From Candidatus Nitrosocaldus schleperae (GTDB lineage: Archaea; Thermoproteota; Nitrososphaeria; Nitrososphaerales; Nitrosocaldaceae): a stretch of DNA of 56,463 nucleotides. The translations under genes and the position numbers were made by a program. The stretch is from assembly GCA_013538805.1 (NCBI GenBank), contig JABXGR010000010.1, positions 1 through 56,463 on the forward strand, in the 5' to 3' direction. Below the pieces are notes generated by a model that saw only the letters and a list, made by a program, of their open reading frames with translations, was not told where the DNA came from and made no database searches. Shown here piece by piece: positions 27,870 to 51,824 of this stretch (positions within the stretch are counted from its first letter, which is position 1; the number at the start of each line of letters is the position of its first letter).

Positions 27870-28007
27870 GTGGATAAGGCTAAAGGGGTTAGGGCATGTC
27901 CTATATGCTCTATATGCAATAGCAAGAAGTTCAGGATAGTTGCTAAATATGATGATGGTAGTATTATGCTTGAATGCTTAAGATGCTCAAATAGAATAAT
28001 TGTATGA
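27870..28007 (+). CDS. 45-residue zinc-ribbon protein
   Basis: A very short gene starting at GTG 27870, 31 bases after nadM. The product has ACPICSICNSKKFRIVAKYD and then LECLRCSNRIIV, two CxxC pairs that make a complete zinc ribbon and little else. TAATAATAT at 27843-27851 is about 23 bases upstream, giving a leaderless start. Its end overlaps the end of the convergent 150-residue gene by 21 bases. Such mini-ribbons are common in archaea; a role in transcription or RNA binding is guesswork. Confidence 0.6.
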   Translation: MDKAKGVRACPICSICNSKKFRIVAKYDDGSIMLECLRCSNRIIV

Positions 28008-28439
28008 TCTTAACTTATTTATCAGCGATTCATGGCAACTCATTGGTACAACCTTCTCTCTGTAAGTCTTGCGTGACTTTAGCAGTCTGGCAGTACTAGC
28101 ATCTATGCTAGTATAATGAAGCACTTTCGCTATCTTTGTATTACTATTATTACAGCGTTTGAAGATGAATTCTATTGTAGGTTCAAACTGTCTTATCTTC
28201 TGAGGAGATTTTGCTTTACTAGTAATTTCAACAAATATATAGAATGTGCTATCTATTACTATAACTGCATCACAATGGGGTTTGCTTATATCATTTAACT
28301 CTGGCTTGCTATTATAATCATATATATTATATTTAGTTATACCTGCTTGTGTGAGCATCTTCTTGCACATCTGCTTTACATGCTTATAATCAGAAGAATC
28401 AGGTTTCTCTAGTATATACACTATTGCATTCATACTCAT
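27987..28439 (-). CDS. Small protein paired with an AAA ATPase, possible PD-(D/E)XK nuclease
   Basis: A 150-residue protein I cannot place with certainty. After an N-terminal helix (HVKQMCKKMLTQAGI) it shows PHCDAVIVIDSTFYIFVEIT then SK: an acidic residue (D57), two strands and E71 with K75. This resembles the PD-(D/E)XK nuclease core, though Lys is two positions later than the canonical ExK. A basic segment follows (RLLKSRKTYREK). It overlaps the upstream ATPase gene by four bases (ATGA), so translation is coupled. The region is by eye more AT-rich than its neighbours. The pair could be an effector/sensor defence module. Confidence 0.6.
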   Translation of the reverse strand: MSMNAIVYILEKPDSSDYKHVKQMCKKMLTQAGITKYNIYDYNSKPELNDISKPHCDAVIVIDSTFYIFVEITSKAKSPQKIRQFEPTIEFIFKRCNNSNTKIAKVLHYTSIDASTARLLKSRKTYREKVVPMSCHESLINKLRSYNYSI

Positions 28440-29812
28440 ATATCAGTTATATGACTTATCCTTGCATGTGTCTCACCCATAGCTAATGCTACTTGCGTTA
28501 GATCTTCTTGTGGTATCCCTTCATCTTCTGTTACATTCAATTCCATTGTCGTGTAACCATGTAGTTGATCATCGTATTTGAAAAGATAAGCACTTAGATG
28601 GTCCATGGGCAGATACTCATCATCCATATAACCTAACTCTCTTCTCTTATCTTTACTAACCTTGTTTAATCGCATCAATATGTTAAACTCTTCCAGCAGA
28701 ATATCGCTATGAGTTGTGATAAGCACTCTAACACCACTCCTAGCAAGCATTGCTAATAATCTTGCAACCTTCCTCTGCAACTCAGGATGGAGGTGTGATT
28801 CAGGTTCTTCAAGTATTAGTATACTGTTAGGTATTACTACGTATTTGAGGTAGAGAGCAAGAGGAGCAAGTTCTGCTATGCCAGATGCAGCCTTTACAAT
28901 CGGTAATGTTAGATCAAACTTCTTATCTCTATATACAAACTCTGTAATTACGCCCTTTTTATCCATAACATTAATATCTATACTGCCTTCAAGTATCTGA
29001 GTATCAAGGAAGTCTATTATTCTTTGAAATTCTTTAGGTCTCCTATAGTTACCATAATACTTATTTGGTAGTAGTATTAATTGTGCAAGGAAATCTGCTG
29101 ATACTCCTGTAAGTCGTGGCATCTCTATAGATGATATTGATAGCTTTGCAGCAGATTCTATTATTGCACTTGCAACAGCTCTATATGCTTGTAATAATCC
29201 AGAACGTGATGCAGGCATATAGTTAATTGGATATGATACCAGTAGTTCATTACGTAGTATGTATTCTATCGTGACGGCCTTCTCTTCCCTAGGAATTCTA
29301 CCAGGTTTTATTATATCTTTTATTACATCGTTCAAAATATTAATAAGATCTTCCTTGGTTGGTAACTTCTCTATTCTTATCTTGTGACTACTTCCGATGC
29401 TTATCCTGTAATTAATTATCGATGTTGATACACCTATATTTACTCTCTTCGTGTTAGTATTTATTATGGAAGATATATCGCCAAATACCCCTACAAGACC
29501 CTTGTATATATCATCTTTAATAATGTTATTCAATACAGCGTACATATAATTATAGTAATCGTTTTTTGTTCTTAACTTCTTAAACCTTTTATGATTAATG
29601 GTCCTTAAATTATAAAAGTATTCTGTTGATCTACCTATCCCCTTGTACAATGCATATAGAAGCATAGCAGTATATGACTTGCCAGAGCCATTTGGCCCTA
29701 TGAAGACCGTTAAGGGTTTTATCTCAACGCTGCCTCTAACAAGAGGGCCCAAGCCTTCAAACTCAAGCCTAATATTACCTTTGCTTATAGTTCTAGCAGC
29801 CTTTACAGCCAC
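28436..29812 (-). CDS. AAA-type ATPase, OLD/DUF3696-like, in a two-gene unit
   Basis: A 458-residue P-loop ATPase of the SMC/OLD-like class. Walker A is FIGPNGSGKSYTAM (G39-S46), the mid-protein landmark PASRSGLLQAYRA is near residue 207, the Walker B block is SILILEEPESHLHPELQRK (catalytic Glu about 336), and the H-loop is VLITTHSDILLEE. The central 200 residues are variable and Ile/Asn/Lys-rich. There is no Toprim domain in the protein. Similar single ATPases occur in anti-phage systems with a separate effector, here the overlapping 150-residue gene. The start is GTG 29812; AATTTAAGT lies about 25 bases upstream. Confidence 0.85.
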   Translation of the reverse strand: MAVKAARTISKGNIRLEFEGLGPLVRGSVEIKPLTVFIGPNGSGKSYTAMLLYALYKGIGRSTEYFYNLRTINHKRFKKLRTKNDYYNYMYAVLNNIIKDDIYKGLVGVFGDISSIINTNTKRVNIGVSTSIINYRISIGSSHKIRIEKLPTKEDLINILNDVIKDIIKPGRIPREEKAVTIEYILRNELLVSYPINYMPASRSGLLQAYRAVASAIIESAAKLSISSIEMPRLTGVSADFLAQLILLPNKYYGNYRRPKEFQRIIDFLDTQILEGSIDINVMDKKGVITEFVYRDKKFDLTLPIVKAASGIAELAPLALYLKYVVIPNSILILEEPESHLHPELQRKVARLLAMLARSGVRVLITTHSDILLEEFNILMRLNKVSKDKRRELGYMDDEYLPMDHLSAYLFKYDDQLHGYTTMELNVTEDEGIPQEDLTQVALAMGETHARISHITDI

Positions 29813-51045: not shown

Positions 51046-51807
51046 TCATAATAACATCAACCCTCTTTCTATATCATATGCTATCTTCATTGCATTGTTA
51101 AGATCCTCTATAGTATCTATCTCAATACATGGTAAACCTTTGGTACTACACTTGTAGAAGCAATCCTCTCTATTAGCAACCAATCTCATAGCATCCTCAT
51201 AATAAAGGTTATATCTACCTTCTTTGAAGAGCGATTCTATGCTCCTTATAACCTTGCTTGCATCATCACTTGTAAGTCTCATAACGCCTATATACTCACC
51301 ATCAGCCTCCTCTATAGGGATGTTCTTGCTTATATCCTTGATTATACCGTTACCATTAACCTTGACCTTCATCTCCTCTTCACCAAGTTGCTTATGATCA
51401 TCTACTACAAGTGCTGAACCATCAAGCATTAAGAGATATTCAAGTATCTTTGGATGGAAGAGTACATCGCTGTTAAGCAGTATGAAATCTCTATCCATAT
51501 AATCTCTAGCAGTATAGAATGAATATATATTACCTAAAGTAGGTTTATCGTTCCTTACAAATCTGAATATTATACCCTTATCATTATAGTTCATTTTTAT
51601 ATGCTCTTCAAGTACATCAGCAGCATGCCCAGTAACAACTATTATGTTATTTATCCCAAGGTTAATAAGAGATGATATAGCCATATCAAATATGGTTAAC
51701 CTTCCAACCTTGAGCAGAGTCTTTGGTATGTTATTTGTTAGTGGTCTTAGTCTAGTGCTTGATCCTGCTGCAAGTATTACTGCTTGATTCATTATTGTCT
51801 TTGGCAT
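51046..51807 (-). CDS. Sugar- or polyol-phosphate nucleotidyltransferase
   Basis: An NTP-transferase of the GlmU/RmlA/cytidylyltransferase superfamily, about 253 residues. The nucleotide loop is AVILAAGSSTRLRPLTNNIP then KTLLKVG, the metal Asp is in FILLNSDVLF, and EADGEYIGVMRL and YNLYYEDAMRLV are further family blocks. The pattern is closest to CTP:phosphocholine or inositol-1-phosphate cytidylyltransferases. Beside a glycerol-1-phosphate-dehydrogenase-like gene it may make a CDP-polyol for the surface polymer (inference). Starts: ATG 51807 has GGTGAT about ten bases upstream; GTG 51822 and ATG 51792 are alternatives. Confidence 0.82.
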   Translation of the reverse strand: MPKTIMNQAVILAAGSSTRLRPLTNNIPKTLLKVGRLTIFDMAISSLINLGINNIIVVTGHAADVLEEHIKMNYNDKGIIFRFVRNDKPTLGNIYSFYTARDYMDRDFILLNSDVLFHPKILEYLLMLDGSALVVDDHKQLGEEEMKVKVNGNGIIKDISKNIPIEEADGEYIGVMRLTSDDASKVIRSIESLFKEGRYNLYYEDAMRLVANREDCFYKCSTKGLPCIEIDTIEDLNNAMKIAYDIERGLMLL

Positions 51808-51824
51808 AAATAGTATAATCACCC

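Follow-up and report, generated by a model that had tools for sequence, protein, structure and literature searches.

An OLD-type ABC ATPase and a PD-(D/E)XK-like partner lacking the ExK lysine form a candidate immune module in Candidatus Nitrosocaldus schleperae

The gene pair and its ATPase

The window analysed here is a stretch of 56,463 nucleotides from Candidatus Nitrosocaldus schleperae, a heat-loving ammonia-oxidising archaeon. An original prediction, made from the sequence alone, had placed an OLD-like ATPase gene and a small nuclease-like gene at 27987-29812, joined by an ATGA overlap, and both open reading frames (ORFs) were indeed found there on the minus strand, together with the features listed below.

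28436..29812, minus strand: OLD-type ABC ATPase, proposed sensor or regulator (ORF of 458 aa with a GTG start; Pfam, PADLOC, congener homologues)
29675..29698, minus strand: Walker A, GPNGSGKS, ATPase residues 39-46 (sequence motif)
29198..29215, minus strand: PASRSG, ATPase residues 200-205 (sequence motif, alignment)
28799..28819, minus strand: Walker B, LILEEPE, ATPase residues 332-338 (sequence motif)
28703..28717, minus strand: H-loop, TTHSD, ATPase residues 366-370 (sequence motif)
28436..28439, minus strand: ATGA stop/start overlap of 4 nt between the ATPase gene and the small gene (sequence)
27987..28439, minus strand: PD-(D/E)XK-fold-like protein of 150 aa, proposed effector, with Thr73 at the position of the ExK lysine (ORF, hhalign, AlphaFold2, fold matches)
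28269..28277, minus strand: effector H55-C-D57, Asp conserved in 21/22 (alignment, sequence)
28221..28232, minus strand: effector V-E71-I-T73 where E-x-K is expected, Glu in 22/22 and Lys in 0/22 (alignment, sequence)
28116..28127, minus strand: effector KVLH108, His in 21/22 of the branch (alignment, sequence)
28029..28043, minus strand: effector MSC135HE, a C-terminal Cys motif common to partners elsewhere, Cys in 20/21 (alignments, sequence)

The immediate neighbours of the pair are housekeeping genes, and the pair is more AT-rich than nadM and ilvC, as had been judged by eye: GC content is 32.5% in the effector gene and 35.7% in the ATPase gene, compared with 46.4% in ilvC, 43.4% in nadM and 41.1% across the window. 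Among the 35 window ORFs that reach 200 aa (mean GC 0.426, sd 0.028), the ATPase gene ranks second lowest, the only one below it lying at 51046-51822 (34.7%). A promoter scan returned 9 sites against 10.7 expected, using a bacterial sigma-70 consensus in what is an archaeal host. Following nadM on the plus strand, a small zinc-ribbon-like ORF (CPICSIC...CLRC; 27870-28007) meets the 150-aa gene tail to tail and overlaps its 3' end, and counterparts follow nadM in a congener (G003) and in a genome from another family (G007).

The larger protein matches the Pfam families AAA_21 (6.1e-23) and AAA_15 (2.1e-20), and its top PADLOC model is PD-T4-4_A (1.7e-41), with PDC-M47A, NsnB and AriA ranking below; among models of OLD-type cores, AriA scored 4.6e-23, GajA 5.2e-11 and Old 1.8e-10. 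PD-T4-4_A is likewise the top PADLOC match for the related ATPases at loci L117 and L141, and at L145 NsnB matches better. The similarity extends past the H-loop into a C-terminal extension, with residues 263-436 aligning to positions 267-438 of the 460 in PD-T4-4_A, and a signature-like motif, ASGIAEL, is found at residues 309-315. These results bear out the assignment to an OLD-like ATPase with Walker A, Walker B (EEP) and H-loop motifs, and also the earlier remark that the second gene is not the Toprim of OLD, Gabija or PARIS, as a search of Pfam with E up to 1 found no Toprim family in either protein.

Fold and active site of the small protein

Scans of Pfam, NCBIfam, PADLOC and PHROGs yielded no convincing match for the small protein. 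Weak ones comprised NCBIfam PurS (0.0071, under its cut-off), PADLOC CARF3 (0.021) and a PHROG (0.14), with none in Pfam; PD-T4-4_B was unmatched at E up to 1, and a search of solved structures by sequence reached E 0.81 at best. When genome contigs were scanned with an alignment of the ATPase, 88 relatives emerged; 80 were kept, and 36 of these were examined. Directly after the ATPase, 32 of the 36 loci carry an ORF of at least 134 aa, which in many cases shares a few bases with the ATPase gene; the remaining four are a decayed locus (L033), one with no such ORF (L043) and two with shorter ORFs of 74 aa (L057) and 109 aa (L058). Twelve of these partners were aligned, eight with E-x-K and four with E-x-S or E-x-T (L041, L046, L048, L050), and these partners have the C-terminal Cys motif in common with the Nitrosocaldus protein. 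Comparison by hhalign linked four Nitrosocaldus sequences to the twelve partners at 3.7e-7, and the wider archaeal branch to them at 4.1e-9 (probability 96; 112 columns, collinear to the C-terminus), against a probability of 1.3 for an unrelated control profile. The bacterial partner at L036 reached PD-T4-4_B at 0.021 at best. Thus, of the profile searches suggested for the 150-aa protein, comparison with other partners gave a clear relationship and the library scans gave weak matches.

An AlphaFold2 model of the small protein, built from 16 sequences, was confident (mean pLDDT 88.7, pTM 0.85). Its elements (H16-31, E36-40, E58-62, E66-76, H79-95, E102-112) form an alpha-beta-beta-beta-alpha-beta core with the layout of a PD-(D/E)XK fold, with D57 where one strand begins and E71 in the next. 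Foldseek placed the nickase Nt.BspD6I at the top (E 4.3e-3) and NucS, EndoMS and MUS81 lower; no row reached E 0.001, and thioredoxins and tautomerases also occurred among the rows. Structural alignment with VIA-align ranked Can2 best (Z 6.3, rmsd 3.6, 113 aligned), ahead of Nt.BspD6I (Z 6.1), NucS (Z 5.7) and EndoMS (Z 5.5), all rows lying below Z 8. Modelled alone, the ExK partner from Moorella (L036) had the strands and helices of its core in the same order (pLDDT 86.0, pTM 0.83) and also matched Can2-type nucleases, BspD6I, NucS, BsmI, Bse634I and HamA. The matched structures, from Can2, BspD6I, NucS and EndoMS to BsmI, Bse634I and HamA, are presumably all PD-(D/E)XK enzymes. The case for a PD-(D/E)XK-like fold, which the original prediction had proposed and had suggested examining by structure prediction, is good but not proven: the profile relationship, the confident model and the top structural rows, mostly nucleases at Z <8, agree with it.

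To describe the active site, 22 small proteins of the branch were aligned, excluding truncated, duplicate or ATPase-less loci (L126/L142, L128-L130, L151, L153, L155-L157, plus L143, the decayed copy of G001); the set was collected by a seeded profile and is possibly biased towards its seed. The ExK lysine is present in none of the 22, its position being taken by Thr (17), Val (3) or Ala (2). The position of His55 holds His in 16, Arg in 5 and Tyr in 1, and Cys135 is kept in 20 of 21. At the His108 column, His occurs in 0/12 of the aligned bacterial and marine partners. The branch is not representative of all archaea, as two marine thaumarchaeal partners (L042 and L045) have the lysine in an E-L-K motif. 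A Pfam scan of nine branch proteins gave nothing above cut-off.

The residues CDAVIVID, FVEIT and K75 that had been singled out from the sequence all exist, but K75, proposed as a shifted catalytic lysine, was rejected because it is not conserved, being Arg in the G002 copy and Leu in that of G004; Asp57, Glu71 and His108 are the conserved residues. The idea that His108 is a plain substitute for the lysine was weakened by a second Nitrosocaldus pair that combines a canonical E-V-K with an IIFH/IILH stretch, a line-up with His108 made by eye, the hhalign match of that partner to the branch being weak (probability 14, 32 columns). This second pair, an ATPase with a 126-130-aa partner, was seen in three of the six Nitrosocaldus genomes (L020:751-2393 in G002, L019 in G004, and G003:C33) and was not found in G000, the genome described here; at L019 and L020 it is flanked by threonine dehydratase-like and cyclo-ligase-like ORFs (by eye).

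In WonAB, a phage-defence pair from a Vibrio prophage, lysine K71 of the small protein WonB is reported as essential (PMC12137116, main text); since the corresponding lysine is absent here, the effector site is either rewired or without nuclease activity. The latter would make the small protein a dead nuclease that keeps its fold to bind nucleic acid or the ATPase, leaving the work to the ATPase or a host factor. The uniform replacement of the lysine by Thr, Val or Ala and the need for it in WonB both suit this reading, which we nevertheless consider somewhat unlikely: a dead, decaying site would not be expected to keep Asp57 (21/22), Glu71 (22/22) and His108 (21/22), and the lone loss of Asp57 sits in the G003 copy, in which neither gene is intact. 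Conservation of these three residues speaks for some chemistry or metal binding. We tentatively propose, at rather less than even confidence, that Thermoproteota harbour a two-gene immune branch that keeps the PD-(D/E)XK fold, replaces the lysine and carries a conserved Asp-Glu-Thr-His site, often with His or Arg two residues before the Asp, acting as a rewired nuclease or through other chemistry.

Distribution of the pair and its history within the genus

Related pairs, which the original prediction had suggested seeking elsewhere in archaea, were found in marine thaumarchaea and other Thermoproteota. A Nitrosocaldus-seeded profile detected relatives of the small protein in 9 of 81 genomes from another class of the same phylum, and an enlarged profile did so in 26 of 398 phylum genomes, patchily spread over 17 of 163 genera. 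An ATPase-like ORF lies directly upstream in 9 of 11 loci from the first search and in 13 of 18 re-examined loci from the enlarged one; L151 is a frameshifted pair, and L153, L155, L156 and L157 showed no upstream ATPase-like ORF. A tree of 44 ATPases unites the three Nitrosocaldus rows in one group (89/96), 14 other archaeal rows in another (100/100) and five bacterial lysine-less rows in a third (100/100), with ExK rows falling between the lysine-less groups. Support is good for only 17 of its 41 inner branches, and long branches lead to three of the rows. The lysine-less state may, on this tree, have arisen more than once or a single time.

Several loci from these searches have features of their own. 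An IMG/VR viral contig (L158:4025-6029) carries a related ATPase with an E-M-K partner, followed by a resolvase-like ORF (by eye). G310 and G446 carry the pair a second time, partly truncated, near the first copy (L120, L129, L130); an ATPase ORF of 337 aa lies between these copies or next to them. Genomic context was read from the ORF lists of eleven 16-kb regions; in one of them, at L171, the pair sits among several short ORFs whose starts, judged by eye, resemble those of HEPN/nucleotidyltransferase and PIN genes. A 183-aa archaeal ORF at L155:1408-1956 (minus strand), bearing 'KADLF...GEVK', matches the branch profile at 3.4e-4, with no ATPase near and no Pfam match above cut-off.

Within the genus, all six genomes (G000 and 5/5 congeners) have the pair, or what is left of it, between ilvC and nadM, and both genes are open in just two, G000 and G004. 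In G002 the ATPase gene is open and the effector gene has lost its N-terminal part and its frame; in G003 both genes are broken, on a MAG contig whose coverage of ~5x leaves room for sequence errors; both have decayed in G001, which is a single-contig genome; and in G005 an effector remnant persists with the ATPase gone. ATPase homologues were found in 4/5 congeners and in one further genome, G010, among the other relatives; the small protein was found in 0/55 of the latter. In G007, an unrelated 335-aa ORF is flanked by nadM and ilvC. Universal conservation at the locus, named beforehand as an outcome that would speak against a defence role, therefore holds for position within the genus but not for intact genes or for the wider lineage. 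A housekeeping DNA-repair or RNA-processing pair could explain the fixed position in 6/6 and the presence of NucS and EndoMS repair nucleases among the structural rows, but is highly improbable given that the pair is broken or deleted in 4/6, including the single-contig G001, and that all 55 other relatives lack the small protein.

The same decay bears on whether the pair is a selfish toxin-antitoxin system, with the small protein as toxin and the ATPase as antidote, rather than an immune one. An open ATPase gene beside a broken effector gene, as in G002, is the order expected if a toxin were lost first, and the pair has decayed repeatedly at a fixed site; on the other side, WonB is reported to be toxic only in the presence of WonA, its ATPase, which argues against a simple antitoxin role (PMC12137116, main text). 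We judge this explanation unlikely, although the toxin-antitoxin and immune readings can overlap.

Divergence at the locus is uneven. Between G000 and G004, the ATPase dS is 1.40, compared with 0.15-0.39 in six neighbouring genes (3.6–9.4 times; a seventh neighbour, sahH, was dropped as a paralogue match), the effector dS is 2.23 (near saturation), and flank identity drops sharply at the pair. For G001, the ATPase value is 0.99 against 0.15-0.44 in the neighbours, with the effector (0.44) within that range, and for G002 the values are 1.56 (ATPase) and 2.14 (effector) against 0.61-1.27. The excess is thus clear for G004 only, weaker for G001 and G002, and absent for G003 and G005. ATPase dN/dS is 0.22-0.28 among G000, G002 and G004. 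We read these comparisons of gene sequences as a function kept for long and, in some lineage, the arrival of a divergent allele in place of the old one, G004 being the clearest case; faster change in place is a possible alternative. Repeated decay and allele divergence at one housekeeping locus offer a natural series for the loss or swap of a module.

Likeness to known systems and a proposed mechanism

WonAB is among the closest designs described: like the Nitrosocaldus pair, it is a two-gene operon of a Toprim-less OLD-ABC ATPase and a small partner of PD-(D/E)xK fold (PMC12137116, main text). According to the same text, WonA and WonB are both needed for phage defence, which is abolished by K34A, R182A, E300A or H333A in WonA and by K71A in WonB; once replication of phage DNA has begun the infection is aborted, translation is inhibited, and tRNA or rRNA is suggested as the target of WonB (PMC12137116). 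The PASRSG motif of the Nitrosocaldus ATPase may, from the alignment, be the counterpart of the WonA R182 region. The two systems, compared by description, differ in that K71 is essential in WonB whereas the Nitrosocaldus protein has Thr73 and an additional His108.

A second relative is PD-T4-4, described as a PF13175 protein with a PD(D/E)XK nuclease (PMC10952713; PD-T4-4 also PMC9519451, as far as these texts were available). Its A subunit is the top library match of the ATPase, whereas the small protein has no match to PD-T4-4_B at E up to 1. Of the traits that characterise WonAB and PD-T4-4, the Nitrosocaldus pair shows an OLD-class ABC ATPase without a fused Toprim and an adjacent partner of predicted PD-(D/E)XK fold (Z below 8), and lacks the catalytic lysine of E-x-K, where it has Thr73. 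We class the pair as an archaeal variant of a system type already known, one that lacks the lysine. The original prediction of a possible ATPase-plus-effector plan, translationally coupled and reminiscent of anti-phage systems, is accordingly matched by similarity to the WonAB and PD-T4-4 pairs, the function itself being predicted.

By analogy, the pair is probably, in our assessment, an immune module of an OLD-ABC ATPase and a protein of the PD-(D/E)XK kind, working broadly like WonAB. The PD-T4-4_A match, the profile link to partners that include ExK proteins, the confident model, the patchy spread, the divergence from G004 and the related pair on a viral contig speak for this reading; the missing lysine, the unmatched PD-T4-4_B, the modest fold matches, the housekeeping neighbours, the single locus within the genus, the lack of a clear divergence excess outside G004 and the NsnB match at L145 speak against it. 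A dimer of the ATPase would hold the small protein; on sensing infection, as the analogy with WonAB suggests, the ATPase would activate or license it, and the small protein would then attack nucleic acid, possibly tRNA or rRNA, thereby aborting the infection. Instead of using ExK, the effector of the archaeon would cut through a rewired site built from Asp57 and Glu71, with His55, His108 or some basic residue close by as possible further members. If the pair is indeed an immune module, a rewired nuclease and a non-cutting protein are about evenly matched as accounts of its effector. Catalysis by ExK is the one step of the WonAB mechanism that is not transferable to it.

Immune systems of archaea other than CRISPR and restriction are, by one account, poorly characterised (PMC12988326, in the part available), and the pair carries a phage-tested design over to thermophilic archaea. 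As its effector is without a residue that is essential in WonB, catalysis without an ExK lysine becomes directly testable. The word 'archaea' is absent from the main text of the WonAB paper (PMC12137116), and neither 'old' nor 'PD-T4' occurs in the available part of the survey of archaeal immunity (PMC12988326). This archaeal branch was not found described in the literature searched, outside which lay most subscription papers and supplements, and none of the scanned PADLOC-DB 2.0.0 models covers the lysine-less branch.

Further likenesses connect the pair with wider families. OLD-ABC ATPases with HNH, PD-(D/E)XK or PIN nucleases are a known class, recorded in 594 taxa and in BREX and related contexts (PMC12839542, in the part available); compared with the OLD-ABC and PD-(D/E)XK-REase dyads of that class, the Nitrosocaldus pair has a lysine-less effector, and no BREX context was noticed around it. 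OLD, Gabija and PARIS have an OLD-type ATPase core in common with the Nitrosocaldus ATPase, their Toprim being unmatched here. The CARF nucleases Can2 and Card1 have a similar predicted PD-(D/E)XK domain (Z 6.3 for Can2), but differ from the Nitrosocaldus protein, in which no CARF domain was matched and which pairs with an ATPase; its weak PADLOC match to CARF3 spans residues 57-131.
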